Positions 2,954 to 26,653 of a DNA stretch of 26,870 nucleotides are shown piece by piece (position 1 is the first letter of the stretch; the number at the start of each line of letters is the position of its first letter). The notes under the pieces are model-generated. The model was not told the DNA's origin, did no database searches, and was given only the letters and a program-made list of their open reading frames with translations. Source of the DNA: a virus; IMG/VR virus record IMGVR_UViG_3300044835_000047, positions 1 through 26,870 of that record; one strand, written 5' to 3'. A program made the position numbers and the translations under genes.

Positions 2954-3397
2954 TTAAATCGTTGCCGTTAGTTCCCATCGCAGTTTTGGCTGCGTCGGAT
3001 GTTTGTCCACTCGCGGGCGAGAAGGAACATCCCAACTGCCACCCCCACGTTTGCCTATTAGTCGCCATCCAGAGGCTCTTAAACTCGCACCTCCTTCATC
3101 CGGAAGGGTGTACGTCCCTATTCGGTTGTAGCCAAGGGCGAACGCCGCCCGAGCAGCTGCGCCGTAGAGGAACGAACAGGCGTTGCGAGTACCATCTGTG
3201 CAAAGACGGGTGACCTCCAGCGTTCTTCCGTCTTGTAGCATCCGGGAAACCGGCCTGCCGATTATCGCCACGCCGACCAGTTCCCCCAGCCTTTCAGCTC
3301 CCAAACTAAACTTGTGGCCGCGCACAGGCGGGTGATGCCGATGCAGCCGCTGCACAAACTCATTCGCCTCCTGTAGAGTGATAGGCACAACTTCCAT
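2954..3397 (-). CDS. XF1762-like family protein
   Basis: The protein matches a small phage/prophage family named from Xylella XF1762. Landmarks are ITLQEANEFVQRLHRHHPPV, GHKFSLGAE, LVGVAIIGRPVSRML, TLEVTRLCTDGTRNACSFL, and GGASLRASGW near the end. The EVTRL and GASLR segments resemble parts of a GNAT acetyltransferase fold, but substrate and activity are unknown. I chose ATG at 3397 (MEVVPITL), which has AGG eight bases upstream. A TTG 18 bases earlier is an alternative start, and an overlapping five-codon ATG..TAA mini-frame precedes both. Confidence 0.8.
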   Translation of the reverse strand: MEVVPITLQEANEFVQRLHRHHPPVRGHKFSLGAERLGELVGVAIIGRPVSRMLQDGRTLEVTRLCTDGTRNACSFLYGAAARAAFALGYNRIGTYTLPDEGGASLRASGWRLIGKRGGGSWDVPSRPRVDKHPTQPKLRWELTATI

Positions 3398-3429
3398 TCT
3401 ATTAACCTTGACCAACCATACCGTTATCC

Positions 3430-4105: not shown

Positions 4106-5125
4106 TCAGCCGTTTAACGCTCCGCTGAGGAACGCAGCGTTCTTCTGCAGGTGCTGGTAATGCTTCATTACCATCGCGGGCGACGTGTGCCCCATGAGCA
4201 GGCTCACAGTGAGGATGTCCTTGCCTTCCAACAGCAGCCGCTGACAGAAGGAATGCCGGATGTGGTAGAGGCAAAGCTTCCTGCCGAGAGCCTTCTTCTT
4301 CCTCAGAAATCGCCGGTTCACCGTGTCCTTGGTCCACACCTCACCGTCCGCATTCCGGAGAAGCGGGCCTTCCGGGTTCGCTGCCATCAGCCTGGTCGTG
4401 ATCTCCATTGCCCGGTCGGAGAGGTAGACGTTGCGTGCCCGCTTCTTCCCCTTCGATTCTTTGATTTTGAAAACCCACCGCTTGTTGGCGGCGTCAACGT
4501 GCCGGGCCTCGACGGTGAAAAGCTCGTTCGGCCTCGCGCCGGTGTCCCACGCGGCAATCAGGAGGTCGCGGAAATCCTGATCGGGGAATCGGCCTAGCAG
4601 GTCTTCAAACTCGGCGGGGGTGATGACCAACTCGCGGCTCTCGGGGGAGGGCTTCTGAACTTTGGGCAGGGGAGTGCGGTCGATGAGGCCCTGATCGACG
4701 GCCCAATTCATCCCCCGCTGGATCGAGCGGGCGAATCCGTTCTTGGTGCTCGCCGACCATGTGGTGCGTGCATCCATGACGCGGGTGACGTGGAACGGCT
4801 TCAGCTCGGCGATGCTGAGCGTGGCCGGAATGGCGGTGGCGAAATTCTGGACGTGATCGCGATGCCAGCGGTAGGTCTTCGGGGCTTGGTTGGCCTGCGT
4901 CCATTCGAGGAAGGAATCGAGGATGGTGACCACGAGGGCACTAGGGCCGCTGGGCACGGCCTTGACTCGCTCCTCCGGGGGCTTGGCCATCAGCTCGTGC
5001 CAGAGCCGCCAAGCTTCGTCCTTATCGGGGGAAAGCCTGACCTGCTTTCCGCCATCATGAACATACCAGCAACTGCAAAATTCCCGCCAGAATGGCTCGC
5101 GACTTTGCTTCTTGGGGCGTCCCAC
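4106..5125 (-). CDS. int: Tyrosine recombinase (phage/element integrase)
   Basis: This 339-aa protein has full integrase length and should catalyse site-specific integration and excision. The N-terminus (about 1-60) is basic. Residues about 65-150 form the core-binding SAM-like domain (SFLEWTQAN, then STKNGFARSIQRGMNWA), and 165-335 the catalytic domain. Catalytic residues visible are Arg198 in TGARPNE, a lysine in IKESKGKK, Arg290 in YHIRHSF, His313 in LLMGH and the nucleophile Tyr323 in KHYQHL. The usual first His of HxxR is Tyr287, a substitution also present in the fragment at 647-886. Wording such as AWDTGARP and SPAMVMKHYQHL recalls Planctomycetes-type integrases (from memory). The gene is visibly GC-richer than the virion genes. 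Its 5' end abuts the putative attP and a terminator closes its 3' end. Confidence 0.95.
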   Translation of the reverse strand: MGRPKKQSREPFWREFCSCWYVHDGGKQVRLSPDKDEAWRLWHELMAKPPEERVKAVPSGPSALVVTILDSFLEWTQANQAPKTYRWHRDHVQNFATAIPATLSIAELKPFHVTRVMDARTTWSASTKNGFARSIQRGMNWAVDQGLIDRTPLPKVQKPSPESRELVITPAEFEDLLGRFPDQDFRDLLIAAWDTGARPNELFTVEARHVDAANKRWVFKIKESKGKKRARNVYLSDRAMEITTRLMAANPEGPLLRNADGEVWTKDTVNRRFLRKKKALGRKLCLYHIRHSFCQRLLLEGKDILTVSLLMGHTSPAMVMKHYQHLQKNAAFLSGALNG

Positions 5126-6857: not shown

Positions 6858-9428
6858 TTAGATGTCGCGGGAGAGGATATCCTCCAGCGGCATCTGATAG
6901 GCTCGTGCGGCCAGGTGATTCAATTGCACCAAGTCGTAATTTTCGCCGGAATAAATCGCTCGCCCAATGCGCGAAAGCTTCTTGACCATATCTTTCGTGG
7001 ACGGTGACTCCGTGGAAAGATCAGGAATATGAACTTTGCTAACATAGCGAGAAGAGAGGTTGAGCTGACCACCTTGCATGACAGGACAGATGAAGGATAG
7101 AAATCGCCCAAACACTTCGCTGTTCAGCAGAGCCAGGTAAGCCCACGGCAGCGGGCTATTGTAGAAAGTGACAGGAGGGGCAACATCCTCATCGAATTCG
7201 CCAGGGTCTTCTATCTCGATTGACTCGGGAGGCTCCTTCAGCCAATGCCAAGCATAGCCTTGGGTGACGACGTATTGCCCCGAATCGTCATAAGCAAAGC
7301 TGCCCCTCTGCCCGAAATAGGCAGATACCAGCTTCGGCCCTGGTTCACGCTGCCATTCGCGTTCATGCGTAAGCCGCCACCATGTAGACTCATCAACGCG
7401 AGAGCGTGCCAATAGGGCTGATTTAAACGGTTGAAGGATTTCACGATAATAATTCGGTACGGCCGATTTGACCTGATCCTCGGCCGTCAATTTCAGCCCT
7501 GATGCATCATAGGGAAAGAAGACATAATTCTTTGGTGTGATACGACCATTCCGTATCGTCGATGATGCTGCTATGGGCCTGAAGAAGGTCTTTTCGTTCG
7601 GTTTGTATTTTGAATAGGTTTCAGCCGTGATGATGAAAGCTTCATTGAGTCCGGTAAGTGCACCTTGCTGTACGTTGAAAAGAATGCCTACGGTTGGCAT
7701 TCGCAGGCTGTCCAGCCATTCAACGGCCCTGCGATACCCCTCTGACCTTGGCGTCCAGCTAGGCTGCTGCATTATGAATTCTGGTGAGGAATCGTACACC
7801 TCAAAGCTCTTGTCCTGCCGGTCGATATATTCCCGGTCCTGCCGCAAAGCCCGCAACGCAGAGTCTTCCGCGCCATCGGTGGCGATTACAATGGCTACTT
7901 TTGCGGGGTCCGGAATACCTGCCGAGGGCTTTTTCATCACGATGAAGGCCGGCTCAACCTTCGTGCCCTTGAAATACCCGTAACCACGGAAACACCCGAG
8001 CAGCGAAAGCCTGGATTCGACTGCAAGATGCTTGCGCCAGCGATCTCCGGCAGAAGTTTCTAGCAGTGGGGCCGGGAGAACGGTGGAAACCACGCCTCCC
8101 TCCTTAATGCTCTGAAATGCCTTCCATGCAAAAGCCATCGCCTTGTCACTGCGCCCCTTGTCGAGGTGCCCCAGCACATTCTTGACTACCTCTAATTCAT
8201 CCTTATTCATCCGATCTACGTGGATGAATGGCGGGTTCATGAGCACTACATCTGGAGTGCCCCACTCGCAGGAAAGAGCATCCTCAGGGTCGATCCGGTA
8301 AGTGACTTTGACGCCGGAAGCTCTCGCATCCTGAGAGGCATGCTCAAGGCAGAATCGCGCCATCGTGCAAGAGATTTGGGACAGGTCGAAGCCGCGAATC
8401 CGGACGTCGCCGCGATAGCCACGATTTACCAACTCCAGGATGGCCTGAATCAGAAAAACCGCCGAGCCGCAGGCAGGGTCTAGGATGTCCAGCGAAGGGA
8501 ATGAGGAAAGATTTCCGAGTGCGTCCAAAGCCTGCTGGACGAGGGTACGGGCCAGCGCAACCGGCGTGAATCGCACATCCGAACGTGCTGGCGGGGACGC
8601 CTGAGCATCGGCCTCGTCAATGCCCGCGAAAAGTGACTGCTGGGCAGGCTGGCGTTCCAGAGCAAGATGTGCTTCCTGATAGAGCTGGCCCGAGGCATGC
8701 CGCATCAGCAGATTGGGTTCAAGAGCGTATCTGAACTGCGTTTCGACGTCGATAAAACGGGAAAGCAAAATCTCGGAAAGGATTGCCCGGCTGGTATTTG
8801 CAATTTCGAGCGCCCCGCTCGATCTGAGCAGATCGGGATACCCACCTGTGAGCTTTTCCAGCATTGAGATTATGTCGCCGATGTCGTTCCGCTTGGCGAC
8901 TTCCGCACGCTCAATCGCGCCGTCAGCTACCGCCTTTGCGGCAAGGAGTAGGGCATTGAATACTCGGAGGGATTCGTGGCCGTTGTCCGCTCCCCTGATG
9001 GCCGCTCTGATAGCCCTGAAAGCACGCAGGAGATGTAGGATAACATCTGTATGAGCTACAGGTTTGCTATTCTTGACGATGTTGAAGAGCTGCGATACGC
9101 CACGGGGCGACGTGGGGAGCTGGAACCTGCGAATCGTCTCCGGTGAATCCCAGCGGCGAAGGAGCACCACTTCCTTCTTCACGTCAGCGATGATGGTGTG
9201 ATTCAGGAAGGAAGACCACGACCATTCAAGGGGGCGATTACCTAGAAGTTCGGTAGGGTCATCGGTGACGAGGAAGGTGAAACTCGATCTCTGCCCGTCG
9301 AGCAGGACGTTTCCACTTTGGTGATAGACAGACGAGGCCTTTCCGAACAGCGGAACGGGCACAAGCCCGAGCACGCGCGCCCAGTCTGAAGCTTCACCGA
9401 CGTTCCAGCGATCAGCACCCGGCCCCAT
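6858..9428 (-). CDS. N6-adenine DNA methyltransferase, large (Eco57I/type IIG-like)
   Basis: This 856-aa protein should transfer methyl groups from SAM to adenine in DNA. It has motif X-like RFTPVALARTL (286-296), motif I DPACGSAVFL (317-326) and motif IV NPPF (398-401), followed by the usual Rossmann continuation (EGGVVSTVLPAPLLE). Residues 1-280 are a largely helical region without a PD-(D/E)xK motif that I can see, so it is not obviously a fused type IIG restriction enzyme. The C-terminal half (about 560-850) looks like a target-recognition domain with NSPLPWAYLALLNSEVFGRF, common in type IIG, BREX PglX and related enzymes. AAAGGCGG precedes the ATG. The promoter region holds a long palindrome, and the 259-aa partner follows 12 bases downstream. 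Confidence 0.9.
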   Translation of the reverse strand: MGPGADRWNVGEASDWARVLGLVPVPLFGKASSVYHQSGNVLLDGQRSSFTFLVTDDPTELLGNRPLEWSWSSFLNHTIIADVKKEVVLLRRWDSPETIRRFQLPTSPRGVSQLFNIVKNSKPVAHTDVILHLLRAFRAIRAAIRGADNGHESLRVFNALLLAAKAVADGAIERAEVAKRNDIGDIISMLEKLTGGYPDLLRSSGALEIANTSRAILSEILLSRFIDVETQFRYALEPNLLMRHASGQLYQEAHLALERQPAQQSLFAGIDEADAQASPPARSDVRFTPVALARTLVQQALDALGNLSSFPSLDILDPACGSAVFLIQAILELVNRGYRGDVRIRGFDLSQISCTMARFCLEHASQDARASGVKVTYRIDPEDALSCEWGTPDVVLMNPPFIHVDRMNKDELEVVKNVLGHLDKGRSDKAMAFAWKAFQSIKEGGVVSTVLPAPLLETSAGDRWRKHLAVESRLSLLGCFRGYGYFKGTKVEPAFIVMKKPSAGIPDPAKVAIVIATDGAEDSALRALRQDREYIDRQDKSFEVYDSSPEFIMQQPSWTPRSEGYRRAVEWLDSLRMPTVGILFNVQQGALTGLNEAFIITAETYSKYKPNEKTFFRPIAASSTIRNGRITPKNYVFFPYDASGLKLTAEDQVKSAVPNYYREILQPFKSALLARSRVDESTWWRLTHEREWQREPGPKLVSAYFGQRGSFAYDDSGQYVVTQGYAWHWLKEPPESIEIEDPGEFDEDVAPPVTFYNSPLPWAYLALLNSEVFGRFLSFICPVMQGGQLNLSSRYVSKVHIPDLSTESPSTKDMVKKLSRIGRAIYSGENYDLVQLNHLAARAYQMPLEDILSRDI

Positions 9429-9600: not shown

Positions 9601-10056
9601 TTATTCCAGCCTCGCGTCTTCAGATCGGAGCCGCTTGGGTTCTGCCCTTTCCGAATCAATCAGATAGGTGGGAATTCCAGCCTCGATGGCTCGCCTGGCG
9701 CAGTCTTTCGTTCCCCTGCTGGCTGAAATTGCCCGGTGGAATGCGAGGCATAGCCGAGCGCCTGCCGCGACGATTTCGGCGTTCCTAACCGGCCCCGCGT
9801 TGGCGTTGTACGGTCGGTTCCGCTTGTCGTAGCGGATTTGAACGTGCGGCGCGTCCAGCTCGTCCCATCGTGCCGGATGCGCCTCCTGATCGATGCCGAT
9901 TTCCCCGCACGCTTCGGCGAAAGAACGGTCGATTCCGCTGGCTCCTCCATGCACGATGACGAAGCTCGGCCCGTGGCGTAGGATGAGCCTGTTCAAGACC
10001 TCCTCAGCCAGGTCGGGCGCGTACCAGTTCCGATCTCCGGTCACGATGACTCGCAT
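9601..10056 (-). CDS. DUF2493 / YspA-type SLOG-family protein
   Basis: This 151-aa protein has the Rossmann-like SLOG signature: MRVIVTGDRNWYAP at the start, then FVIVHGGASGIDRSFAEAC (about 32-50), PARW, GPVRNAEIVAAGARLCLAFH, and GTKDCARRAIEAGIPTYLI. The GxR-W and GGAxGID motifs form the nucleotide-binding face of this family. SLOG proteins are proposed nucleotide or ligand sensors and processors, often found in mobile elements and conflict loci; no reaction is established for DUF2493. The C-terminus (KRLRSEDARLE) ends just before the methyltransferase regulatory region. No Shine-Dalgarno is evident and a -10-like TAAAAT sits six bases before the ATG, so translation may be leaderless. Confidence 0.85.
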   Translation of the reverse strand: MRVIVTGDRNWYAPDLAEEVLNRLILRHGPSFVIVHGGASGIDRSFAEACGEIGIDQEAHPARWDELDAPHVQIRYDKRNRPYNANAGPVRNAEIVAAGARLCLAFHRAISASRGTKDCARRAIEAGIPTYLIDSERAEPKRLRSEDARLE

Positions 10057-10061
10057 GATGG

Positions 10062-10090
10062 ATTTTAGCCCACTTGTGGACGGTTGACCA
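10062..10090 (-). promoter_or_regulatory. Candidate promoter of the SLOG gene (leaderless)
   Basis: On the minus strand TGGTCA (10085-10090) and TAAAAT (10062-10067) are spaced by exactly 17 bases. A start site seven bases beyond the -10 would fall at or next to the A of the ATG (10056). That would give an mRNA without a 5' leader, in line with the absence of a ribosome site. Confidence 0.45.
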
Positions 10091-10104
10091 GTCGCATTGG
10101 CCGT

Positions 10105-10362
10105 TCAGCTTTTCGACCGCTGCTTATGCTTCCTGATGCCCACCAGCGACCTCAGGATGAACGGCCTGGTCAGTCTCGGGGTTCCGAGCCGCTTTTTCAC
10201 GAGCTGGCAGAATTCCGCCGCCTCATCGCGTGTGAAGCAAAGTTCGTCGATGGACCAGCCCGCGAAATGATCGGCTTTGATAGCGGTCAGGGCCGCTCGG
10301 AATTCTTCGACCGGGCCGCTATAACCGAAATTCTTCAGGGTGTCCGCAACTCGGGCTTTCAT
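10105..10362 (-). CDS. Small hypothetical protein (85 aa)
   Basis: The sequence runs MKARVADTLKNFGYSGPVEEF, then KADHFAGWSIDELCFTRDEAAEFCQLV, then PRLTRPFILRSLVGIRKH. It predicts three to four helices with a basic C-terminus, and could bind nucleic acid. A strong AGGAGG precedes the ATG and a plausible promoter is upstream. I recall similar small proteins in Planctomycetes genomes but cannot give a function. It sits between ardC and the SLOG gene on the same strand. Confidence 0.65.
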   Translation of the reverse strand: MKARVADTLKNFGYSGPVEEFRAALTAIKADHFAGWSIDELCFTRDEAAEFCQLVKKRLGTPRLTRPFILRSLVGIRKHKQRSKS

Positions 10363-10394
10363 GGGTCAGCCTCCTGTGTATAGGCGTCCACTAA

Positions 10395-10422
10395 ATTGTA
10401 TGTCGGTCGATGCTCAATGCAA
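10395..10422 (-). promoter_or_regulatory. Possible promoter of the 85-aa gene
   Basis: On the minus strand TTGCAT (10417-10422), a 16-base spacer and TACAAT (10395-10400) precede the AGGAGG and start codon by about 35 bases. The -10 is good and the -35 weak. Confidence 0.35.
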
Positions 10423-10457
10423 TAGGTGCGCTTTGATTTTGAACATGGATGGAAAAT

Positions 10458-10475
10458 GCCGCCCGCTAGGGCGGC
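10458..10475 (-). terminator. Rho-independent terminator after ardC
   Basis: A perfect 7-bp GC stem (GCCGCCC with GGGCGGC) closes a 4-base loop and is followed on the minus strand by ATTTTCC. It lies about 12 bases past the ArdC stop, so it probably ends the antirestriction transcript. Confidence 0.75.
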
Positions 10476-10487
10476 GAATCAGCCCAT

Positions 10488-11363
10488 TTAATCCGTCTTC
10501 GGCTGCTGGCCATTGAGGTAATCGGCTGTCGCTTGGGCCTTTGAAGCCGCCGTGAAGAGATAACGCGGATCTTCTTTCATGGCCGCGATCCAGAATTGGA
10601 GGTAGGCAGCGTGCTCGTTCATGTCCGGCGGGGCGATGCCAAGTGTTGCGCAGGTGTAGACGCTCGCCAGTTCGGCGATGATCTCCTCACGGGCATAGCT
10701 CTGGCGGTCAGATGAGGGCTTGAGATCGCGTGAAAGTCGGCTCCCGTGTCCCGTCCAGTGCCCAAACTCGTGAATCGCGGTGCTGTAATATCCTTCAGGG
10801 CTGGTGAACGATTCAAAGTCGGGAAGGTTGATGAAATCCTCCGAAGGGCGATAGAAAGCCCCTCCGCTGCCGTGGCGGATCGTTGCGCAGGTGTTCTTGA
10901 TGAACGTGTCGGCGTGCTCGATGCGCTGGGATTGGTCGAGCTGGTGAACCGGCTTGCTCGAATATTTCTCGGGAAGCCCGTCGCACTGATCCGCGTTGAA
11001 CACGCGATAAACCTTGCTGATCCAGTAACGATCCTCCTTTTCAGTGCCGTCTTCCGCCGTGTCCTTCTTGGTCCGTGGCTCGCACCAGAGGATCGCCGTC
11101 GATTTCTCTCCCTTCCTGACGCTCCCTCCAAACTCCAAAGCTTGCTTGAACGTCATCCAATAGGGTGAAACGTACCCCATCTCGTCGGATTGAATCCAGA
11201 GAATGAGCGTGTTGATTCCTCGATAGGGCTGTCCGGCGTGGCGGAGCGGCAGGAAAGCGCCGTTGCCCGCTGCCCACGGTTTGCGCCATGGGGGAAGGCT
11301 GCCCGACTCAAGGGCGGCGATGATTTGGTTGGTGACGCTGGTGTAGAGTTCGCTGGCATTCAT
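10488..11363 (-). CDS. ardC: ArdC-type antirestriction protein (ssDNA-binding plus zinc metallopeptidase-like)
   Basis: The 291-aa product starts at the ATG behind GGGGGA (MNASELYTSVTNQIIAALESG). Residues 1-135 form the ArdC N-terminal single-strand DNA-binding domain (PPWRKPW, then PYRGINTLIL, PYWMTFKQALE, GSVRKGEKSTAILW). Residues 145-285 form the zincin-like domain with HEFGH (198-202) and a downstream EEIIAELAS (Glu231 probable third ligand). ArdC proteins of plasmids and integrative elements protect incoming DNA from host restriction; whether proteolysis is needed is unsettled. It is the first gene after a structured non-coding stretch and has its own terminator. It is the clearest plasmid/ICE-like gene in the window. 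Confidence 0.93.
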   Translation of the reverse strand: MNASELYTSVTNQIIAALESGSLPPWRKPWAAGNGAFLPLRHAGQPYRGINTLILWIQSDEMGYVSPYWMTFKQALEFGGSVRKGEKSTAILWCEPRTKKDTAEDGTEKEDRYWISKVYRVFNADQCDGLPEKYSSKPVHQLDQSQRIEHADTFIKNTCATIRHGSGGAFYRPSEDFINLPDFESFTSPEGYYSTAIHEFGHWTGHGSRLSRDLKPSSDRQSYAREEIIAELASVYTCATLGIAPPDMNEHAAYLQFWIAAMKEDPRYLFTAASKAQATADYLNGQQPKTD

Positions 11364-11671
11364 GGAAATCCCCCGTCTGAAATTGAAAAAGGCTGCGATG
11401 CGGCAAGCGCCGTCATTCGCTGCCATGCCGGGCAGGCTTCAGAGCGAAGGGGAATTTGTCTAGGGTCGATTCGCCCGTCTGCAAGGAGCGCAGCGGATGA
11501 AGATGGGATAGCGACTTGCGAAGCCCTAGACAAAGGGGAACGTTAGGTTCCCGCGTCAGTCGGTGGGAAGGCCGCGAAGCGGGTGTGCAACACGGGAGCG
11601 AAGCGCACCCTGGAAAGTGACGCTCGGACGCTCAAGCTCATTGACGATACGGGAGAGGGTTTCAAATTAAA
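11364..11671. other. Gene-free region with a stack of strong stem-loops upstream of ardC
   Basis: No convincing gene lies between ardC and the GH16 gene. Several exact pairings occur in order: TTTGTCTAGGG/CCCTAGACAAA (11455-11465 with 11524-11534) enclosing a hairpin CCG-CTGC/GCAG-CGG (11475-11496), then GGGAAC/GTTCCC (11536-11552), then GCGTCA/TGACGC (11553-11558 with 11618-11623). The last encloses GGGTGTGC/GCGCACCC (11581-11588 with 11603-11610, one wobble) or the competing CCGC-GAA-GCGG (11572-11582). This could be an ardC leader RNA, a stand-alone structured RNA, or a single-strand DNA element such as an origin. Which strand matters is not evident. Confidence 0.6.
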
Positions 11672-12400
11672 CTAACGTGAGGTCAAAATCGTCGTAAAGC
11701 TGACCGATGAATATTCAGCGGTTACCGGCGCGGTGTACTTGAACGCCCCAAGCCAAGCATTCTCAGCGGCAGCACCAGCCCACAATTCGAGATACATCTT
11801 GCTCGCGTGAGCTGGCAATACCTTACCCGGCTTCGTCTGGAACAGAACTTTTCCGTCCGCGTACCATGTGATGCTGCCCGGCTGCCAGTTGAAGGCGTAG
11901 GTGTGGAAGTCGGCGGATGAATCGAAACCCAGATCAGCGATGTAGCTGCCTGAGCTGATGCCATTCACCCAATAGGTGAGCGACACATAGCGCGGGCTTC
12001 GGCCCAGGAATTCAAGGTCGATCTCGTCATGCGGGTTTGCGGTGTAGGTGAAAAATGCAGTGTTGAGTCCTGGGCCTGCGGCGGTTTTCAAATTGACTTG
12101 ATACATGCCGTAGGCCTGCTGGGTATAGGACTGCAACTCCCCGCAAGCGTATTTACCCTTTGGCAGTCCTACCTTGCTCCCGATGGTGAAATTAAGGTGC
12201 CCGATGCCATTAGGAAGGAACTGCGGAATAATCGCGCTGGTCTGCCACTGGCAAGCCATCCAGTCGCCATCAGACCAGCCGTTCGAGATATACCATTTCG
12301 ATGTGTCTATTGCGCCTGTCTTGGAGAAGAATGGAATCGTTTGGGCTTCAGCCTGGCTTGCGAATAAGGCTAGAGCTGCGATCAGGGCTTTGAGCTTCAT
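11672..12400 (-). CDS. Secreted GH16-family endo-beta-glucanase (ExoK/licheninase-like)
   Basis: The 242-aa product has a Sec signal peptide (MKLKALIAALALFASQAEA, cleavage likely after residue 19) and a GH16 beta-jelly-roll. The catalytic cluster is DEIDLEF, giving nucleophile Glu126, Asp128 and acid/base Glu130. WYISNGWSDGDWMACQW, CGELQSY, GLNTAFFTY and FHTYAFNWQPGSITWYADGK are typical of the family and close to licheninase and the rhizobial EPS glycanase ExoK. It should cleave beta-1,3/1,4-glucan-type linkages outside the cytoplasm. It follows the spanin genes directly and has AAAGGA before the ATG, so it is expressed with the lysis cassette. It probably loosens exopolysaccharide at lysis or helps virions spread. 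Confidence 0.92.
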   Translation of the reverse strand: MKLKALIAALALFASQAEAQTIPFFSKTGAIDTSKWYISNGWSDGDWMACQWQTSAIIPQFLPNGIGHLNFTIGSKVGLPKGKYACGELQSYTQQAYGMYQVNLKTAAGPGLNTAFFTYTANPHDEIDLEFLGRSPRYVSLTYWVNGISSGSYIADLGFDSSADFHTYAFNWQPGSITWYADGKVLFQTKPGKVLPAHASKMYLELWAGAAAENAWLGAFKYTAPVTAEYSSVSFTTILTSR

Positions 12401-12410
12401 AGGAATCCTT

Positions 12411-12566
12411 TCATTGCCGTGGTGCGGCGTTCGGAAATGTGGGGCAAATGTGGTCGGGGCAGATAACGCAGCCTGATAATGACGCGAGAAATAGCAGAAA
12501 TATTGTGAGGCACCCCCAATATTGGATTGGCCCTATCATTGGCGTTGCCGGTATAGCCATGCCCAT
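12411..12566 (-). CDS. Rz1-like outer-membrane spanin lipoprotein
   Basis: The reading frame starts inside the Rz gene in another phase and runs past its end. It encodes a hydrophobic segment (YWGCLTIFLLFLASLSGC) with a lipobox ending LSGC, so the mature lipoprotein would begin at that cysteine and be only about 19 residues (CVICPDHICPTFPNAAPRQ). An out-of-phase Rz1 overlapping the end of Rz is the classic spanin arrangement. The start is uncertain: an ATG 33 bases further upstream would also work. O-spanins are usually longer and richer in proline, so this is a minimal form. Confidence 0.8.
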   Translation of the reverse strand: MGMAIPATPMIGPIQYWGCLTIFLLFLASLSGCVICPDHICPTFPNAAPRQ

Positions 12567-12961
12567 AGTGAGATGAGCTTTTGTTCCTCGATATCGCATT
12601 GCCTATAGGTCAATTGGTAGGTTTTACTGGATTTCGGATCGGGGTTAGAGATGACGGTAGTTCTGGAAACGGTTGGCAGACGATGGCCGGTTGTATCGTC
12701 GGGCTTGCGCAGGCCGTTAAAGTCATACTTGCTATCAATACCAAATATTTGCTTTTCATATTGAGCCTCGACGTTATTGGTTATGGACTCGGCCTTCTGC
12801 TGCTTGACGATCACGCCTTGCTCTGCGGCTATAGTGACTTTCTGCTGTTCCTCGACAATTTGAGCGGCGGCTTGTCCAGCCCGCCAGCTTTCAGCTTTGA
12901 ACCCTCCGATGAACATTCCGACAGACCAGGCAACGAAAGCCAATAGCCAATATTTATTCAT
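12536..12961 (-). CDS. Rz-like inner-membrane spanin
   Basis: The 141-aa protein has one N-terminal membrane segment (YWLLAFVAWSVGMFIGGF). A long helical, Gln/Glu-rich periplasmic stretch follows (about 25-75, QAAAQIVEEQQKVTIAAEQG), then a C-terminal globular part. This is the i-spanin pattern: together with Rz1 it bridges the envelope and fuses inner and outer membranes after the endolysin has cut the wall. It overlaps the end of the holin gene, and the Rz1 frame begins within its 3' part. Confidence 0.85.
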   Translation of the reverse strand: MNKYWLLAFVAWSVGMFIGGFKAESWRAGQAAAQIVEEQQKVTIAAEQGVIVKQQKAESITNNVEAQYEKQIFGIDSKYDFNGLRKPDDTTGHRLPTVSRTTVISNPDPKSSKTYQLTYRQCDIEEQKLISLWAWLYRQRQ

Positions 12962-13166
12962 CGCATTGCTCTTCTTTCAAATCGTCACGGTCCTTGTCGG
13001 GAGAACGCAAAAGTATGCCGATGGCCCCGCAAATTATCCCTGCGGTAACGCAGAAATGTTGATAAGGCGACCACATTTCACTGGAAGAGGCGGCAAAAAG
13101 CGCACTCAAAGCGGCCCAGGTAGAGCCGTGTTCGAGTGCGCCGAGTATGCTGCCATGGAGTCGCAT
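12954..13166 (-). CDS. Holin-like small membrane protein
   Basis: The 70-aa protein has a short hydrophobic stretch (STWAALSALFAAS, 15-27), a longer membrane segment (FCVTAGIICGAIGILL, 38-53) and a highly charged C-terminus (RSPDKDRDDLKEEQCDE). This matches small two-segment phage holins that time lysis and release the endolysin. Its start shares a base with the preceding stop (TAATG) and its end overlaps the Rz start, so it is translationally coupled in the lysis operon. Confidence 0.8.
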   Translation of the reverse strand: MRLHGSILGALEHGSTWAALSALFAASSSEMWSPYQHFCVTAGIICGAIGILLRSPDKDRDDLKEEQCDE

Positions 13167-13444
13167 TAAGCGATTATGGAGCCGGAACCGCTTGAGGACG
13201 AAGACGTCGGAGCGGGAGCCGGGGTCGGAGCCGGTGCGAACGCCGTGGTGAATTCCGTCAATGCGGCGGTCACATCCGCCAGTTTCTGCTCGTCGGTGGC
13301 TTGGCTGGTCTGGATAGAAGAAATCGCGGATTGCAACGGAGCAATCGCCTGAGCAACGATGGCGTTAACCTGGTCAGTAGATAGGCCGTGTTGGGATTGC
13401 AGGGTTGCGATAGCGGCTGTCATTGCATCAGTGAGTTGGGTCAT
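13166..13444 (-). CDS. Hypothetical lysis-region protein with Pro/Ala-rich tail
   Basis: Starting at the ATG behind AAGGGA, the 92-residue product begins MTQLTDAMTAAIATLQSQHG. It has a helical region with repeated Ala, Gln and Ser (VNAIVAQAIAPLQSAISSIQ) and ends in a low-complexity tail (PAPTPAPAPTSSSSSGSGS). The frame is open a further 20 codons upstream but without a good site. The pattern resembles small phage coiled-coil proteins found near tail or lysis genes. Function is unknown. Confidence 0.65.
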   Translation of the reverse strand: MTQLTDAMTAAIATLQSQHGLSTDQVNAIVAQAIAPLQSAISSIQTSQATDEQKLADVTAALTEFTTAFAPAPTPAPAPTSSSSSGSGSIIA

Positions 13445-13496
13445 GGTAATCCCTTTCAAGTCGAGGTTTATATTAAGATTGATATCAATAGACCGT

Positions 13497-13676
13497 CTAA
13501 ACATGCTTTTTCAGGTCGGCAATCAAAGCTTCAATTTTCTTGATTGGCCATTCAGCGGCGTTTTCTAGCCTTTGCCATATTGTATTGATGTGCGACTTGG
13601 CCTCGTTCTCCGCTAATTTGCGAGCAGCCGTGGTGGCTGTTTCCATTGCATTAATAGTTATCCCATCATCGGCCAT
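13497..13676 (-). CDS. Small hypothetical protein (59 aa)
   Basis: AGGAAAGGA precedes an ATG giving MADDGITINAMETATTAARK and ending IEALIADLKKHV. It predicts amphipathic helix throughout with no membrane segment. The open frame extends upstream into endolysin sequence but that part is a shadow. I recognise no family. It lies between the endolysin and the coiled-coil protein of the lysis region. Confidence 0.65.
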   Translation of the reverse strand: MADDGITINAMETATTAARKLAENEAKSHINTIWQRLENAAEWPIKKIEALIADLKKHV

Positions 13677-13740
13677 ATTGAATCCTTTCCTGTTAATTCT
13701 ACTCCCTATTGTATACTTAACTCTCTGCTGGTGCAATCGC

Positions 13741-14184
13741 TTAGTCTTCAATAGGTTTATCAAATAAAGAACGCTCGGCTTCCCTGCGGCGGGATAATCC
13801 GAGAGATAGCGTGGTTCCAATATATTTCCAGCGAGTGATTTGCTCGCTCGCGCCCTGCAAGTCATTCTCATTTAGCTTTTCAAGCAACGTGCTCTCATTA
13901 AGACGTCCCACACCTAAATTGTAAGTCCAAGAACAGAGGGCATCGAATTGATTTTGATTCAGGACGACTTTGACCAGGGTATTGATGGCGTGTTCGGTAT
14001 CAGCCAGGTCACTGTGTAACAACGCTTCAGCCGTTGCTTCGGTTATATTGTCGAATAATTCCCCCGGCTCAACCTTGTGGCCGAATCCCACAGTATTCAG
14101 TCCTGCTCCATCCTTGTAAGGACTAGCGGAAAATCCTTCAAATTTCTTGATAAGGTTGATCGCGGTATCACTTGCGTTCATCAT
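13741..14184 (-). CDS. GH24 endolysin (T4-lysozyme type muramidase)
   Basis: The 147-aa enzyme hydrolyses the beta-1,4 bond between MurNAc and GlcNAc in peptidoglycan. The GH24 triad is visible: Glu16 in KKFEG, Asp25 in YKDG and Thr31 in NTVGFGH, with the same 9- and 6-residue spacing as in T4 lysozyme. QFDALCSWTYNLGVG and SLGLSRRREAERSLF are further family signatures. There is no signal peptide or SAR segment, so export should depend on the holin. Length is typical. It starts with ATGATG overlapping the upstream stop, and the second ATG could also be used. Confidence 0.95.
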   Translation of the reverse strand: MMNASDTAINLIKKFEGFSASPYKDGAGLNTVGFGHKVEPGELFDNITEATAEALLHSDLADTEHAINTLVKVVLNQNQFDALCSWTYNLGVGRLNESTLLEKLNENDLQGASEQITRWKYIGTTLSLGLSRRREAERSLFDKPIED

Positions 14185-14360
14185 TGTCTCATTCTTTCCA
14201 CAAGGTCAGCTTTAGCAATATCTAACGCGGCGTTAATCTCATGCAGCCTTAGTTTTTTCTTGTTCCTACTATAGACAGAAACAACAAGATTATCGGTTTC
14301 GTAATAGAAACACGAATGACTGGATGGCTTAAGTGCGACGACATTAGTTTTAGGGGTCAT
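14181..14360 (-). CDS. Small hypothetical protein (59 aa) between the membrane protein and endolysin genes
   Basis: The frame begins MTPKTNVVALKPSSHSCFYY and ends KADLVERMRQ. It overlaps both neighbours by ATGA, which strongly suggests real, coupled translation. The product is a short basic protein, strand then helix (NKKKLRLHEINAALDIAK), without a membrane segment. No family is recognised. Confidence 0.7.
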   Translation of the reverse strand: MTPKTNVVALKPSSHSCFYYETDNLVVSVYSRNKKKLRLHEINAALDIAKADLVERMRQ

Positions 14361-14638
14361 TTCTTGTCTGCTTTCCTATCGAGCTTATCCTCAATGCGGT
14401 CGAACCGTGACGAAAGGCGGGTTTCCATTTTCTCAAGGTCACTGTGTAATGAGGTGTTTACATTGGCGATTTCAAGTTTTCGCGTATCGTTCTCTGTCAG
14501 CAGGTGACTGACATCTGATCGCATCGTCGCCCATGCAAATATAATTCCAGCGGCTAGCGTGATGTGGCCGGTGCTGATGTTCGGGCTGAATCGAATGAAT
14601 CGGTTTCTGCCGACAGGCCTAGTTTCGTCATCCAACAT
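14357..14638 (-). CDS. Membrane-anchored coiled-coil protein
   Basis: The 93-aa product has a basic N-terminus (GRNRFIRFSPN) and one membrane segment (about 23-39, TGHITLAAGIIFAWATM). A heptad-rich helix follows (about 49-90, ENDTRKLEIANV, then LEKMETRLSSRFDRIEDKLD). Phage lysis regions often carry such one-segment coiled-coil proteins, some acting as holin-like or antiholin factors; XhlA-type proteins have the reverse order. AAGAGG precedes the ATG. It is the first gene of the tightly overlapped run leading to the endolysin. Confidence 0.7.
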   Translation of the reverse strand: MLDDETRPVGRNRFIRFSPNISTGHITLAAGIIFAWATMRSDVSHLLTENDTRKLEIANVNTSLHSDLEKMETRLSSRFDRIEDKLDRKADKK

Positions 14639-14808
14639 GGTTGCCTCTTGTAATACATGGTAACTAATTTAACACGCTCCATCATACTTAGGCAAAGCAA
14701 AATGATGTTTCCGGTGCATAATTTCTTAGTCTAGCAAAGCCCGCATAATGGACTGCTGCGGCTTGATGCCCAGCATCGCCTAGCCGTATCTGCCCATGCT
14801 ACTTGATA

Positions 14809-15969
14809 TTAAATATTAAATACGTTAATCGTTAAATCCTTTACCGATGATGTATTACCTGCACTGTTAGAAACAGCCAAATCTATCCATATTGCTCCGC
14901 CAGGCGTCAATCCGAGAATACGGCTTACAGAAAATGGGAATTGAGTCTGCCCCTGATTAAATGTGCCGGACAACCCATATTTAACAGTACCTATCGGCGT
15001 TACCGTTAATGCCGCACCATTGCTGGGAGCCGCGCCTGTTCCATAGCAAAGCTGTACCGTAGTAAGACCGGCAGGGCCGCTGTTTTGCACATCTCCTGGT
15101 ACATCGATATACACGACACCAAAACCAAGCGGGGTAAATGTAGCTATGGCCCCCAATCCCATCATTACCGGCGTCGTACTGGATGTCCCTGTTGGGTCAG
15201 AAGGATTCCAGGTATAGATATTTGGTAAGCTGCTGGATGGCAGGTCTGCTGCGACCAATGCGCGGAAGGTAGGCGCTGCGGCAGCACCTGAAGTTGGTCC
15301 TGCTAGGATATGATTGGCACTCTGGTTAACCAGCGTAGCAGGTAAAGTACCTGTGGATGTTACTGGACTAGTTGGGGTCGAACTCAGGATAGTCCCATCT
15401 CCTGTAAAAGTTACCGATGTGACCGTTCCAGCATTACCCGCCGAAGTGCCGCTAAACTGGAAATGCGATCCATCATAGAAAGAAGCATATTCATTTCCGG
15501 CTACAATCTCACCACCCACACAAGCAACGGGGCCGCTGGTCGATTTCTTGTATGCAGCTACTGCCCCGATGCTATTAACATTGATAGTGGTCGCACCAGT
15601 ATTGTTCCCAGTTGCCACGAATCGGAATTCTTGCCCTATCTTATAAGCCGATACCGCTGGAGAAACATTAAAAGTGATGCTATTCGTGCCCGCAACGCTG
15701 GAACCTATAAGACCCGAACCGGACTGGAGTGTTTCCAGATTAACGGCGTCTTGTGCAGCTGTCGCATCGCCTACGCCAGTAAGCTTGAAGCCGTTTAATG
15801 GGATGTTAGCCGTTACGTTCTGTGTGCCGTCCTTGAGCATGCAGGTTGACAGGGCGATTGCCATGCCATTCATCTCGTTATCCATACGGGTAGAATCGAT
15901 GTTAAGGCCGTTATTCTTATCATTAATCCAAGAATATAATCGGCTAAAAACGCCACCTGAATAACTCAT
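14809..15969 (-). CDS. Tail fiber / collar fiber protein
   Basis: The 386-aa protein starts like the virion-attachment end of podovirus fibers (MSYSGGVFSRLYSWINDKNN, then DSTRMDNEMNGMAIALSTCM). A shaft repeat region follows (KDGTQNVTANIPLNGFKL, then DATAAQDAVNLETLQSG). Further on are the common fiber modules VTSVTFTGDGTILSSTPTSP and GPTSGAAAAPTFRALVAAD. The C-terminus (about 265-386) is a separate beta-rich domain that probably binds the receptor and has no enzymatic motif that I can see. It is the last virion gene before the lysis region, with 170 bases of non-coding sequence after it. Confidence 0.88.
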   Translation of the reverse strand: MSYSGGVFSRLYSWINDKNNGLNIDSTRMDNEMNGMAIALSTCMLKDGTQNVTANIPLNGFKLTGVGDATAAQDAVNLETLQSGSGLIGSSVAGTNSITFNVSPAVSAYKIGQEFRFVATGNNTGATTINVNSIGAVAAYKKSTSGPVACVGGEIVAGNEYASFYDGSHFQFSGTSAGNAGTVTSVTFTGDGTILSSTPTSPVTSTGTLPATLVNQSANHILAGPTSGAAAAPTFRALVAADLPSSSLPNIYTWNPSDPTGTSSTTPVMMGLGAIATFTPLGFGVVYIDVPGDVQNSGPAGLTTVQLCYGTGAAPSNGAALTVTPIGTVKYGLSGTFNQGQTQFPFSVSRILGLTPGGAIWIDLAVSNSAGNTSSVKDLTINVFNI

Positions 15970-16110
15970 GCTTTTGTATCCTATAAATAAATACGTTGAA
16001 AATAGCCAGGGAATAGAAATCCCTTGCCTTAAGTAGTTAATATGTTAATGATTGTGGTATGATGTATTTTATCGCAATCCCACTTGGTATTTGGCTGTTC
16101 CTTGAAATTA

Positions 16111-21288: not shown

Positions 21289-21724
21289 ATAATTCCTTTC
21301 TTTTGTTTGGCTTTAACCATTTCTTAGCTTCACGGAAAACCATCCCGCAAATTATCATATCTTCTTTGCCGTAGCCTTGCCGGATAACGCCTTCCTTCTG
21401 GAAGCCGATACCGTAATTAAATTTCAACGCTCGCTTATTGCTGGCGGGAGTGCAAGTAGTAATTCTACGGCAGCGTAGCTGCGTGAATGGGTAGCTCAGG
21501 AACGCCCTTAAGGATTCCGGCGTTGCCCACTTCGGACTGTCTGCGGCCATTGATATTTCAATATTACCATAAACATGAATGTAATTATGATAAACAACGC
21601 CTGCTATGATCTTATCATCTTCAGCCAGCCCTATAGCCGAAAACTGCTCAAACCGTGCGTGCGGAATCCGCTTATTAACCCAATCGGCAACCGCCTGATC
21701 CTGCCCGTAAACAAACCACCTCAC
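21209..21724 (-). CDS. GNAT-like acetyltransferase, phage-encoded
   Basis: The 171-aa protein follows the GNAT fold pattern. An N-terminal recognition helix comes first (QAVADWVNKRIPHARFEQF), then strands (AIGLAEDDKIIAGVVYHNY, then GNIEISMAADSPKWATPESL). A helix-strand stretch follows (RCRRITTCTPASNKRALKF) with NYGIGFQKEGVIRQGYG, the C-terminal GF-x-xEG motif typical of the family. Phage GNATs of this kind lie among tail genes; their targets are unknown. Its ATG overlaps the nozzle stop (ATGA). The last ~30 residues share DNA with a small ORF in another phase and look unstructured. Confidence 0.82.
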   Translation of the reverse strand: MRWFVYGQDQAVADWVNKRIPHARFEQFSAIGLAEDDKIIAGVVYHNYIHVYGNIEISMAADSPKWATPESLRAFLSYPFTQLRCRRITTCTPASNKRALKFNYGIGFQKEGVIRQGYGKEDMIICGMVFREAKKWLKPNKRKELYGINERILSEPAASSKIHGEATSQGQ

Positions 21725-23907
21725 ATCACGCCTCCGCGTTCATACAGCCAGTCTATGCTATTCAGTGCAATACTGACGCCGTTGGTGCTTGTAACTAAAT
21801 GAGCTGCTGCACAATAGCCATTGCCATGCGCCGTGAGCCAGCTTTTGCGTATGATATTTGAGTTTCCCCACGGGGTTGTATCCCAAGGGGACGTATCCCA
21901 TGACGATCCGCCCGAAGCTGGCGTATTGACTGGCGAAGTCACCTTGCTTTCAAAATCTACGTTAATGGACAGGGCAATCTTGACGGCGACACTCGATGAA
22001 ATAACCGGACGTACCGCTTTGAATTGCTTCTTTGAGCTTCTAGTCTTGAAATAATTGAAAGCAGTTACAATTTCTCCATTAATGTAGGATAGTCCGCTAG
22101 CTGTATAACTTAAATTATCATCACCCATGCCTGAATCGGCTTGGCAAACAAAACCGTTGCTGCTGGCAAAGTAGGGCAACTGCTTATAGAGTGTCCAACA
22201 CGAGGCATTCAATCCTATAAACCGACACCACGAATTATTCAGCGTGTTCATGACATACTGATAGACCGTGCTATTTGAAATCACAGGCACGTTGAATAGC
22301 AGCCAATTACTGTCGGGATATAACAATGCCTCCCATCCAAAATTAGCCTTGTAGCTTGTCACGCCGTCCGTAGCCGCCTGCCTGATCTTATCTGAGATAG
22401 CTACCTTTTCAGCAGCGTCCCGTGCCAGCGGTAGCGCCTTTGACATGGGCAAAAAACCATCCTCGGATATGACCACGAGATCGGAACCATACTGAACCAA
22501 TGGGCGATTACCCACGGGTGCACCGATCTGGAAAACCCCCACGAGGGCAAAGGTGGTCGAGCTGGCAGGGTCTGTGCCTTGGTACATGAGAACTTCGCCC
22601 TTATTCGTGTAGAACAGGATAAAATCGTCGGAACCTGCGCCCCCGTCGCGTGTCCAAACTCCGATAGCCACCAGATATCCGCCCTTGTGACACAGGAGCG
22701 AAAGATCAAATTGTGTTGCCGCTCCTGAAATAGCGTCGGTGTCAAGATACCATGCGCTCAATGTTCCTGATTCCACCATCCAGAGGCGATGCTTGAACAG
22801 GCATGGGTAAATCAGTTTCGTTGAGTCTGATAGCCCCGTAATCGTATTGTTCGCCCATGAACCATTGTATTTCTGCGGAGTGTCGCCACCGTTGAACGCT
22901 AGAAGATACCCATTCATATTCTCGTATTGCCAGCGGTTGCTGGTAAAGCCATTAAGCAATGGCAAGCCAACCGGCCCTCCGTTGGTGCAATCATAAATTC
23001 CACCGCCAGCCGCCGCCATAAGGCTCGTGGTCGCCCCACTGGCATAGGAAAACAGCGTTTCAATGGGAACTCCTACTGCGTTGTAGCTGCTACCTGATGA
23101 ATAAGAAGGTGTGTCAGCACCAGACGTTACGGTGCCGCTGGTGGTATTGACCGGCATGGCGTTGGTCTTGCTGGTAAGCATATTGCAATCTACAATGAAG
23201 GCATCGCCTGAAACAGAAATCCTGAATCCTATGGTTGGGTTAAGGCCAGCCGCTGCGGATTCCACCCTGATATAGCTGGTGGTAATTCCAATGACGGTGA
23301 TCCATGTACTTCCATCCAGCGTATAGGCAAATGCCCCCGTCCCGGTGAGTCGTTTGATATAAAAGCTGTCGAACTGCCCTGCCGTAATGGTAATGGCCTG
23401 CTTGGCAGTTCCGTTCGCTGCGCTGGCCGTCAATGTGGAAGCGGAGTTTGAAACGCCGTCCAACCCAACCGCATTCTTTACCGCTGTTAAGTTGCTTTTT
23501 GTCCATGCCGCATTGCTTAGGTCGCGGGAAAACAGGCAACTGTTGGTGTATGATACATCAATCCAAAGCTGCTCTATCGAAAGCTTAGTACCATATCCTG
23601 CGGGAGTGTACCATGTATATCGCGGCACATCGATAGCATCGGTTTTTAATGTGCCAACGCTATCGAAATAGGTTCCTGTAGTGCTGCGGGTGAAGGCAGT
23701 GAGCTGCCCAACATAGTAAGAGTATTTTAACGAGCCATTCCTAAGAGTGGCATTGGCTGAAGCAGGGATATAATTATCGAGTTGCACCGCATCTTCCTGC
23801 GGCATATCGAACAATGCATCACGCGCATTCCAGCCGCCCGTGGGAGGTGGTAACGATGCAGTCTGCGAAACCTGCCGTCCTCGTTCTCTAGCAGCGGGTA
23901 TTAACAT
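21721..23907 (-). CDS. Tail nozzle/tubular protein with an inserted carbohydrate-binding-like module
   Basis: The 728-aa protein matches the long tail-tube or nozzle proteins of podophages: PPPTGGWNARDALFDMPQEDAVQLDNY near the start, then ETLFSYASGATTSLMAAAGGG, RWQYENMNGYLLAFNGGDTPQKYNG, LFKHRLWMVESGTLSAWYLD, and IGVWTRDGGAGSDDFILF. Between residues about 68 and 276 the beta-rich core is interrupted by a different domain (FTRSTTGTYFDSVGTLKTDA, NSCLFSRDLSNAAWTKSN, TSGTVTSGADTPSYSSG). That domain is the concanavalin/LamG-like module commonly fused to phage spikes and fibers. It probably adds surface glycan binding to the tail tip. The gene begins 6 bases after the adaptor stop. Confidence 0.82.
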   Translation of the reverse strand: MLIPAARERGRQVSQTASLPPPTGGWNARDALFDMPQEDAVQLDNYIPASANATLRNGSLKYSYYVGQLTAFTRSTTGTYFDSVGTLKTDAIDVPRYTWYTPAGYGTKLSIEQLWIDVSYTNSCLFSRDLSNAAWTKSNLTAVKNAVGLDGVSNSASTLTASAANGTAKQAITITAGQFDSFYIKRLTGTGAFAYTLDGSTWITVIGITTSYIRVESAAAGLNPTIGFRISVSGDAFIVDCNMLTSKTNAMPVNTTSGTVTSGADTPSYSSGSSYNAVGVPIETLFSYASGATTSLMAAAGGGIYDCTNGGPVGLPLLNGFTSNRWQYENMNGYLLAFNGGDTPQKYNGSWANNTITGLSDSTKLIYPCLFKHRLWMVESGTLSAWYLDTDAISGAATQFDLSLLCHKGGYLVAIGVWTRDGGAGSDDFILFYTNKGEVLMYQGTDPASSTTFALVGVFQIGAPVGNRPLVQYGSDLVVISEDGFLPMSKALPLARDAAEKVAISDKIRQAATDGVTSYKANFGWEALLYPDSNWLLFNVPVISNSTVYQYVMNTLNNSWCRFIGLNASCWTLYKQLPYFASSNGFVCQADSGMGDDNLSYTASGLSYINGEIVTAFNYFKTRSSKKQFKAVRPVISSSVAVKIALSINVDFESKVTSPVNTPASGGSSWDTSPWDTTPWGNSNIIRKSWLTAHGNGYCAAAHLVTSTNGVSIALNSIDWLYERGGVM

Positions 23908-25236: not shown

Positions 25237-26598
25237 TTAATCCTTTTGGTTGTTATGTAATAGGTTTCGCTTAACGACAAAGCTGGAAGTGGTTTCGGTG
25301 AGATCCTCCCATTGAATCGTATGGCCTGACAGGGCGGACTTCCACCATTCATGGGGGAATACACTCAAATGCAGACTATCCCCTATAATGGAGCCCATGC
25401 TGTCCGGCACGGTGCTAATTTGAAAGAAAACTGTTTCTGCGGCTTTCATTATATTCTCTATAACGTCGCCAACCTTGTCGGTTGGGATATGCTCCATGAC
25501 ATCGGTGCAATACCCAAAGGGGGCACTGAAACCTATTGGCTTGCTGAGGTCGGCCTGATGAAATGGCAGCAGCATTGCCTGGGGGTCACGGCTATTGGTA
25601 GCGAAATCAATTAACATGACAGCGTACCCCGCCTGATGCAGCTTTAGTGCACCCCGTCCAGTGCCGCACCCAAAATCAATAATCGTTCCATCCGGGTTGA
25701 CTACATCGAGAAAGGTATCTATGCAAAGTTCGCCCGGCGCTTCATTGCGGTATTCTGTGTGCTTCCACATCTCTTGATATTTTTCTTGCTCGGAAAGAGG
25801 ATTGGTCCATATGGCAGGCAGCAATCCATCTCCGTGTATATGAATTACGCTTCCGTCACGCGACAGCGCGCGTGCACGAGAGACGAACCCATAGGCCTGC
25901 GTTTTCATTGTGAGCGAGCAATGGTATGTCTTGCCCCTGTGAGTGGCTGTAGTATAGAAATCGCCGTCATTTAAGGGCTGGTGTTTGGCGTGTGAGCGCC
26001 CGCCTCGATTGGAAGAATCAAGGCCGTATATGTGAAGAATCCGATACCCCATAGCATGTACAAGGACAGGTACGGTGCCTCCTACTGAAGAATGTGCGCC
26101 GATCAGGCAATAATCAACCTGTCGCTTTGGGAAGTCCTGCTGCTCGTCCACGGGGTAATTGCCGTAGGTGGCGTGCCAAAGAATAGCATCGGGTACGGTA
26201 TCGAGCAGCGAAGGATCGACCTGTGACGCGAATAGATGGTTGCGAGCCTGCGAAATCAGCTCGATTGTGCGTGGCTGGGCGTCCATTATGACTTGATAGT
26301 CCGGTATGATTCCGTGGTCATTAAGGTAACCAGCGGCCCCATTCAGGGCGAAGATAATCCCACCTTTGCTCTGCATGGCGGCTATTTCAGCTACGCAATC
26401 TTCCAGACTCGGCCCTGATCCGCAAATGATCGCCTTGCCATCATGTGGCTCAGTCCGTGCAACCCATTCATTGGGTCGCCGCGAATTGGTGAGAACATTC
26501 GTCAATATGCTTCTTTCCGAAACGTTACATACCACGTCAAGCTCTACGCGAAGAGGCATCGTAGCGTGTATGTTCTGTAAAGTGACTTCTGATTGCAT
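25237..26598 (-). CDS. DUF115/MptE-like domain fused to a SAM-dependent methyltransferase
   Basis: The 453-aa product starts at an ATG with AGGAAA upstream (MQSEVTLQNIHATMPLRV). Residues about 50-260 form a DUF115 (MptE-like, Maf-related) domain: GKAIICGSGPSLEDCV, FALNGAAGYL, IPDYQVIMDAQPRT, IGAHSSVGGTVPVLVHAMGY, LHIYGLDSS. Residues about 300-450 form a class I methyltransferase with motif I IIDFGCGTGRGALKL and the later DVMEHIP. DUF115 proteins act in pterin diphosphokinase or flagellin-glycosylation (Maf) settings; the phage role is unknown. It sits between a capsid-associated gene and the head/tail connector genes, so glycan or nucleotide modification of virion or host targets is conceivable. 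Confidence 0.85.
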   Translation of the reverse strand: MQSEVTLQNIHATMPLRVELDVVCNVSERSILTNVLTNSRRPNEWVARTEPHDGKAIICGSGPSLEDCVAEIAAMQSKGGIIFALNGAAGYLNDHGIIPDYQVIMDAQPRTIELISQARNHLFASQVDPSLLDTVPDAILWHATYGNYPVDEQQDFPKRQVDYCLIGAHSSVGGTVPVLVHAMGYRILHIYGLDSSNRGGRSHAKHQPLNDGDFYTTATHRGKTYHCSLTMKTQAYGFVSRARALSRDGSVIHIHGDGLLPAIWTNPLSEQEKYQEMWKHTEYRNEAPGELCIDTFLDVVNPDGTIIDFGCGTGRGALKLHQAGYAVMLIDFATNSRDPQAMLLPFHQADLSKPIGFSAPFGYCTDVMEHIPTDKVGDVIENIMKAAETVFFQISTVPDSMGSIIGDSLHLSVFPHEWWKSALSGHTIQWEDLTETTSSFVVKRNLLHNNQKD

Positions 26599-26618
26599 AG
26601 TGTTTCCTACAATAAGGG

Positions 26619-26646
26619 ACAGCCCCCAAGTTTCCCAGGGGGCTGT
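26619..26646 (-). terminator. Hairpin terminator after the capsid-associated gene
   Basis: A perfect 9-bp stem ACAGCCCCC / GGGGGCTGT with a 10-base loop lies 8 bases past the upstream gene's stop. On the minus strand it is followed by CCCTTATTGTAGG, a weak T run. It could lower transcription from the very highly expressed capsid genes into the genes further along. Confidence 0.7.
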
Positions 26647-26653
26647 ATGGAGG

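Follow-up and report, generated by a model that had tools for sequence, protein, structure and literature searches.

Why does a phage carry an EPS-glycanase-like gene directly behind its lysis genes? Phages of slime-forming bacteria face EPS twice, at entry and at exit, and for most of the known depolymerases the assumed role is in entry. The gene considered here, a member of glycoside hydrolase family GH16, lies in a virus record of IMG/VR, 26,870 bases long, which we analyzed as a whole and call the window. The record is probably a fragment of a phage genome. Its virion genes mark the phage as podovirus-like, and a tyrosine integrase gene (4106–5125, minus strand; phrog_1, 3.7e-44; PF00589) marks it, by sequence, as temperate. 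The host is probably an alphaproteobacterium.

The GH16 protein and its cleft

The gene (11672–12400, minus strand) has an ATG start and encodes a protein of 242 aa. This protein matched Pfam PF00722 (Glyco_hydro_16) with an E value of 3.3e-32 and a score of 111.8 bits, versus a curated cut-off of 22. GH16 was the only Pfam domain in the protein, and no virion-attachment domain was found. The DEIDLEF motif is intact at residues 125–131, and the catalytic residues E126, D128 and E130 are kept in all 38 rows of our alignment. PDB lichenases matched the protein down to E 9e-39, and the nearest solved structures are those of bacterial lichenases. An AlphaFold model, built from five sequences and with a mean pLDDT of 76 (the leader and two loops were poor), matched lichenase 1gbg at E 1.7e-20, with TM-scores of 0.75 and 0.84 by query and target length, respectively. 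Residues 1–19, MKLKALIAALALFASQAEA/Q, read by eye as a Sec-type signal peptide. A soluble and exported design of the enzyme is supported by these features. The earlier note on this DNA had described, without naming the strand, a GH16 reading frame with the full catalytic cluster and a Sec signal peptide; the frame and motif were found as described, and the leader agrees as far as reading alone can tell.

Scores against narrower family models fell short of their cut-offs. The window protein reached 177.2 bits for the ExoK equivalog of NCBIfam (NF052392; cut-off 350) and 196 bits for the BglS lichenase model (NF047856; cut-off 300). A Hyphomicrobium gene located in an EPS cluster likewise scored under the ExoK cut-off (275 versus 350 bits). 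PHROGs contained no family matching the GH16 protein up to E 5.

Four positions of the cleft (90, 124, 205 and 44), which we take to be equivalent to substrate-binding residues of Bacillus lichenase, were compared across the alignment. Q90, H124 and E205 of the window protein replace R, W and N, respectively, which all 14 Firmicutes rows share without exception. All eight ExoK-like rows have Q at 90 and H at 124. The nine cellular rows that group with the window gene (see below) vary at both sites, with four Q, three H, one N and one gap at position 90 and seven H and two W at position 124. E205 is unique to the window among the 38 rows; the other 37 have N (19 rows), S (15) or T (3). Position 44 is D in the window and N in 33 of the other rows, the remaining four having D (L060), S, R and a gap. 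The acidic residues E205 and D44 could signal either changed specificity or lost function.

Position behind the lysis genes

The lysis genes lie upstream of GH16, on the same (minus) strand. Closest is an Rz1-like outer-membrane lipoprotein ORF (12411–12599), which has a lipobox-like LSGC by reading and no PHROG match, and which overlaps, in another frame, the gene for an Rz-like i-spanin (12536–12961; phrog_1152, E 3.8e-5). Further upstream are a 70-aa ORF with two hydrophobic stretches by reading (12954–13166), a probable holin that matched neither Pfam nor PHROGs, a 112-aa ORF (13166–13504) and another ORF (13497–13871), each without a Pfam match, and the gene for a T4-type lysozyme endolysin (13741–14184; PF00959, 1.8e-40; phrog_7, 6.8e-47). 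The Rz1 stop and the GH16 ATG are separated by only 10 nt (12401–12410, minus strand), AAGGATTCCT, within which an SD-like AAGGA can be read. Because of this 10-nt gap, it is plausible that the lysis operon ends with GH16. The gap also fits two statements of the earlier note, that the gene directly follows Rz1/Rz and that it has a place in the lysis cassette.

Scans for regulatory elements added little. A terminator-like hairpin lies ~120 nt past the GH16 stop (11536–11552, minus strand), and the scan found 5 terminator-like sites in the region 10000–16000 versus 6.4 expected from shuffles. Promoter predictions near GH16 were at chance level, and no GH16-specific promoter stands out. Repeats nearby are limited to a 12-nt direct pair and a 14-nt palindrome.

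On its other side, GH16 is followed after 245 nt by an accessory block. The first gene past GH16 encodes an ArdC-like antirestriction protein (10488–11426, minus strand; PF18818, 2.8e-44; PF08401, 4.8e-36), and the block continues with a SLOG-family, YspA-like protein (9601–10056) and a large (856-aa) N6-adenine methyltransferase (6858–9428). The window also encodes a Mom-like DNA modification protein (2954–3415; phrog_1384, 1.9e-40), and all four proteins likely have anti-defence or modification functions. GC3 is 0.65 for GH16, as compared to 0.71 for the ArdC gene, 0.60 for the methyltransferase gene and 0.48–0.58 for the lysis genes. Since this value is nearer to those of the accessory block, GH16 may belong to that block and not to the lysis operon.

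Elsewhere in the window, a 79-aa ORF at 647–886 on the plus strand, opposite to the strand of the intact integrase, resembles by reading the C-terminal portion of another tyrosine integrase. The virion/tail block is on the minus strand. It includes a virion or tail protein named 'amidase' in PHROGs (21721–23907, minus strand; phrog_5107, 2.2e-98), which served as the marker for finding sister phages. Also among the virion genes, 25237–26688 encodes an MptE-like domain (PF01973) and then a methyltransferase-like stretch below cut-off; relatives of this product occur in 24 of 80 sister loci (the best 80 of >583). Rfam and tRNA scans gave no matches.

Relatives in cells, plasmids and viruses

Among 385 alphaproteobacterial genomes, GH16 relatives were found in nine at E 1e-10. 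A second search, of 174 genomes of one order, gave six genomes with GH16 at E 1e-20, two of which were already among the nine. In a first tree of 36 rows, the window gene was unplaced, and row L065 fell in the same cellular clade. The second tree, inferred by maximum likelihood from 38 rows, excluded L064, L043, L061 and L065 and took in six further cellular rows; L018, a weak relative, lay under the HMM threshold for row choice. In this tree, the window gene and nine cellular rows, drawn from seven alphaproteobacterial genomes, make up a clade of 10 (support 95/95). Together with an eight-row rhizobial ExoK-like group, these form an 18-row clade (98/90). The inner branching order of the clade of 10 is not settled by the 38-row tree. 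Identity between the window protein and the nine cellular rows ranges from 40 to 51%, and the window gene sits on a long end branch (1.14).

Constrained topologies were also evaluated. An origin among Firmicutes lichenases was rejected, as grouping the window gene with the 14 Firmicutes rows gave an AU p value of 4.6e-5. Grouping it with all eight ExoK-like rows was not rejected (p = 0.207). A constraint with seven of the eight ExoK-type rows, leaving out L062, gave p = 0.0006, a value that does not exclude the ExoK group because omission of L062 also split that group. Hence, we are unsure whether the window gene belongs inside or beside the ExoK group, yet the origin from alphaproteobacterial EPS glycanases holds with either placement. 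Based on the two supported clades and the rejected Firmicutes grouping, the interpretation that the window gene is a captured alphaproteobacterial EPS-type glycanase is well supported.

These results are in line with the earlier note, which had called the enzyme ExoK/licheninase-like and suggested a captured host gene: the sequence falls among EPS-cluster glycanases of alphaproteobacteria, and phage lysis genes lie upstream of it. Like ExoK, a GH16 endo-1,3-1,4-beta-glycanase of Sinorhizobium meliloti, the window protein has the catalytic triad, an H before DEID, Q90, a signal-type leader (by reading) and relatives in EPS clusters, and in the best tree its clade neighbours the ExoK group. Unlike ExoK, it is encoded in a phage rather than in an EPS cluster and scores under the ExoK cut-off; in the best tree it sits in another clade, though a place inside the ExoK group is not rejected (p = 0.207). 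With BglS lichenase it shares the fold, the DEIDxEF motif and the nearest solved structures, but it differs in the three replaced invariant residues, the score below cut-off and the rejected grouping with Firmicutes.

All nine cellular genes of the clade adjoin EPS genes, as judged by reading. The neighbours are of the glycosyltransferase, flippase, Wzy-type polymerase, Wzz/kinase-like, acyltransferase and polysaccharide export types. In a Pfam analysis of eight EPS-type neighbours from six loci, seven cleared the curated cut-off and the eighth, a GNVR match, fell narrowly short; three neighbourhoods (L057, L091 and L092) were assigned by reading alone, and one gene (L058) is at the start of a 3-kb contig. 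No evident phage genes were seen beside the nine cellular members, in stretches of up to ~4.5 kb on each side. Relatives were also found in 166 plasmid records (220 with another query). Six of the plasmid relatives were examined; five are annotated in EPS-type clusters, including S. meliloti exoK, and the sixth record is unannotated. Some genomes have more than one GH16 gene: in G310 (contig C3, 337440–343279), two divergent copies lie ~5 kb apart near EPS genes, and G517 and G530 each have two copies on separate contigs.

Among phages, the gene appears to be rare. A tblastn search of 50,697 phage records with the window protein returned nothing, even at E 1, and the same records gave no match to the Hyphomicrobium relative (E 1) or to the viral relative L026 (E 0.1). 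Scans of viral contigs with the window protein and with query A4 yielded 22 and 63 pattern matches, respectively, and no relative; such absence is not proof, because the scans use short peptide patterns. Two further queries each led to a single distant relative. Query A1 recovered L026 (223–1695; 33% identity), in which the GH16 domain is part of a larger 490-aa protein of a viral contig, and query A5 recovered L120 (27% identity), from a viral contig of 463 kb. A structure search of viral models recovered GH16-fold proteins at ~10–17% identity, siphovirus and crAss-like entries among them; viruses with GH16 are therefore no novelty in themselves. The collections searched may omit records very close to the window.

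Relatives of the virion protein (21721–23907) were found in 24 of the 50,697 phage records, none covering 80% of the protein, and these include phages of Sulfitobacter, Rhizobium and Bradyrhizobium. None of 80 sister loci (the best 80 of >583 relatives of the virion protein) contained GH16; these loci are mostly fragments, and only 5 of the 80 contain a relative of the window endolysin. GH16 was also absent from the whole records of 21 of the 80, picked by size or likeness, from three related records (L019, L020 and L027) and from the stretches around ArdC relatives in viral contigs. The record of L120, run alongside the 21, did match. The earlier note had named two findings that together would speak against its reading, homologues confined to chromosomes without phage context and a lack of co-transcription with the lysis genes. 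The first of these is what we see: the nine cellular members are flanked by EPS genes and no close phage relative was found, so the phage context rests on a single record, the window.

In cellular genomes, the virion protein has relatives in 12 of the 385 alphaproteobacterial genomes and in 4 of the 174 genomes of one order. G097 is the only genome of the 385 with both a virion protein relative and GH16, and these are on different contigs. Residues ~68–280 of the virion protein form an inserted stretch that is missing from many relatives; L125 and L141 align along the entire protein. The inserted stretch resembles proteins in G498 and G517 (43–44% identity; tail-fibre-like by reading). These two genomes also bear EPS-cluster GH16 genes, and they alone among the 4 of 174 match only the inserted stretch. 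G390 matched only this stretch as well, and no GH16 was found in G390; the match is therefore at most a post hoc hint of host range.

A possible role at lysis and its rivals

We propose, with a probability of roughly 60%, that the gene encodes a captured ExoK-like EPS endoglycanase of the host, which is made from the last gene of the lysis operon and cuts host EPS at lysis. A temperate phage would have captured GH16 from an EPS biosynthesis cluster, and the gene would be translated from the late lysis transcript. Sec would then export the enzyme to the periplasm, where it would wait for holin, endolysin and spanins to open the envelope. Once freed, it could cut the beta-glucan-type backbone of the EPS around the dying cell, and this would ease both virion escape and the approach to neighbouring embedded cells. 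We infer the steps of export, storage and spanin-timed release from the leader, from the order of the genes and from what is established about phage lysis; a lysis-linked role is plausible on these grounds. If true, the phage treats EPS as a further layer of the envelope that it must open in order to leave, and limits on virion escape from biofilm become testable by deletion of one gene. A bolder version is put forward tentatively, and we regard it as possible though doubtful: a periplasmic EPS glycanase would represent a fourth functional class in the Gram-negative lysis operon, with spanin-gated release and a cleft retuned to the host EPS. The slime layer would then be opened just as the outer membrane fails, and E205 and D44 would be signs of a specificity adapted to the EPS of the phage's own host.

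The main rival is lysogenic conversion, in which GH16 expressed from the prophage would trim the EPS of the lysogen in an ExoK-like manner, affecting chain length, biofilm and phage adsorption. It earns this rank because, in S. meliloti, ExoK cuts EPS I of high molecular weight, and the amount of ExoK bears on polymer length (PMC3233446). The integrase, the EPS-cluster setting of the relatives and the adjoining accessory block (ArdC, SLOG and DNA methyltransferase) fit this scenario, but the 10-nt gap ties GH16 to late lysis genes, which should be silent in a lysogen, and no promoter specific to GH16 stands out. We consider it rather unlikely. Less likely again is that GH16 is a passenger, a captured host gene without a selected role in the phage. 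That would suit its occurrence in a single record, with no match in 50,697 phage records or 24 related virus records. Yet neither the reading frame nor the leader nor the catalytic residues are damaged, despite 40–51% identity and an end branch of 1.14; decay of a neutral gene would be expected in so long a time, although the sequence may have diverged before capture.

Two further explanations are far less probable than these. An assembly chimera, in which a bacterial EPS gene was fused to a contig of phage origin, could account for there being one metagenomic record only, but GH16 has phage lysis genes upstream, an ArdC-like gene downstream and no EPS genes beside it; moreover, at the upstream junction just 10 nt, with an SD-like sequence, separate GH16 from Rz1, and the repeats nearby are confined to the 12-nt pair and the 14-nt palindrome. 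Least probable, by a small step, is a virion-associated depolymerase for entry. Viral contig L026, with its GH16 domain inside a larger protein, provides a parallel, and phage depolymerases are often virion components (PMC6966330), but the Sec-type leader (by reading), the lack of any domain besides GH16 and the lack of a PHROG match all argue otherwise. The earlier note had regarded phage depolymerases as normally virion-bound. This is fair as a generalization, but a soluble, burst-released precedent exists in PghP of Bacillus phage phiNIT1, which is made at the end of infection (PMC6966330).

Soluble, host-derived phage enzymes acting on capsule or EPS are already known, with PghP and LevP of phiNIT1 as examples. 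Lysates of phage BSP10 also degrade gamma-PGA (PMC5977233). Like PghP and LevP, the GH16 protein is a non-tailspike and apparently host-derived enzyme, whose release is here a prediction. PghP and LevP belong to other enzyme families and come from a lytic phage of a Gram-positive host; the window gene, in contrast, has a Sec-type leader, follows the spanins of a Gram-negative-type lysis block and resides in a temperate phage. Among the literature matches listed, which consist of titles and the starts of abstracts and leave subscription papers and bioRxiv largely outside, none describes a phage with an ExoK-type enzyme in its lysis operon.

GH16 genes have already been published in virus contigs (PMC6460857, PMC10127799 and PMC9636769, each as excerpted). 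One of these soil virome cases, the 70-kb temperate ERR3313649_contig_1027 of PMC10127799, resembles the window in having GH16 in a temperate virus genome. In the excerpted text, the soil virome accounts give no subfamily, neighbourhood or link to a lysis operon and treat the genes as auxiliary carbon-metabolism genes. If our proposal is true, phages pick up glycanases from EPS clusters, a source to be set beside the carbon-cycling roles for which virome surveys, as excerpted, discuss GH16. Separately, by reading, a secreted GH16-like protein is encoded in L120 (9193–14056) next to two apparent glycosyltransferases and to genes resembling membrane exporters; the region has the look of an EPS-type gene set, and the very large contig may belong to a jumbo phage.
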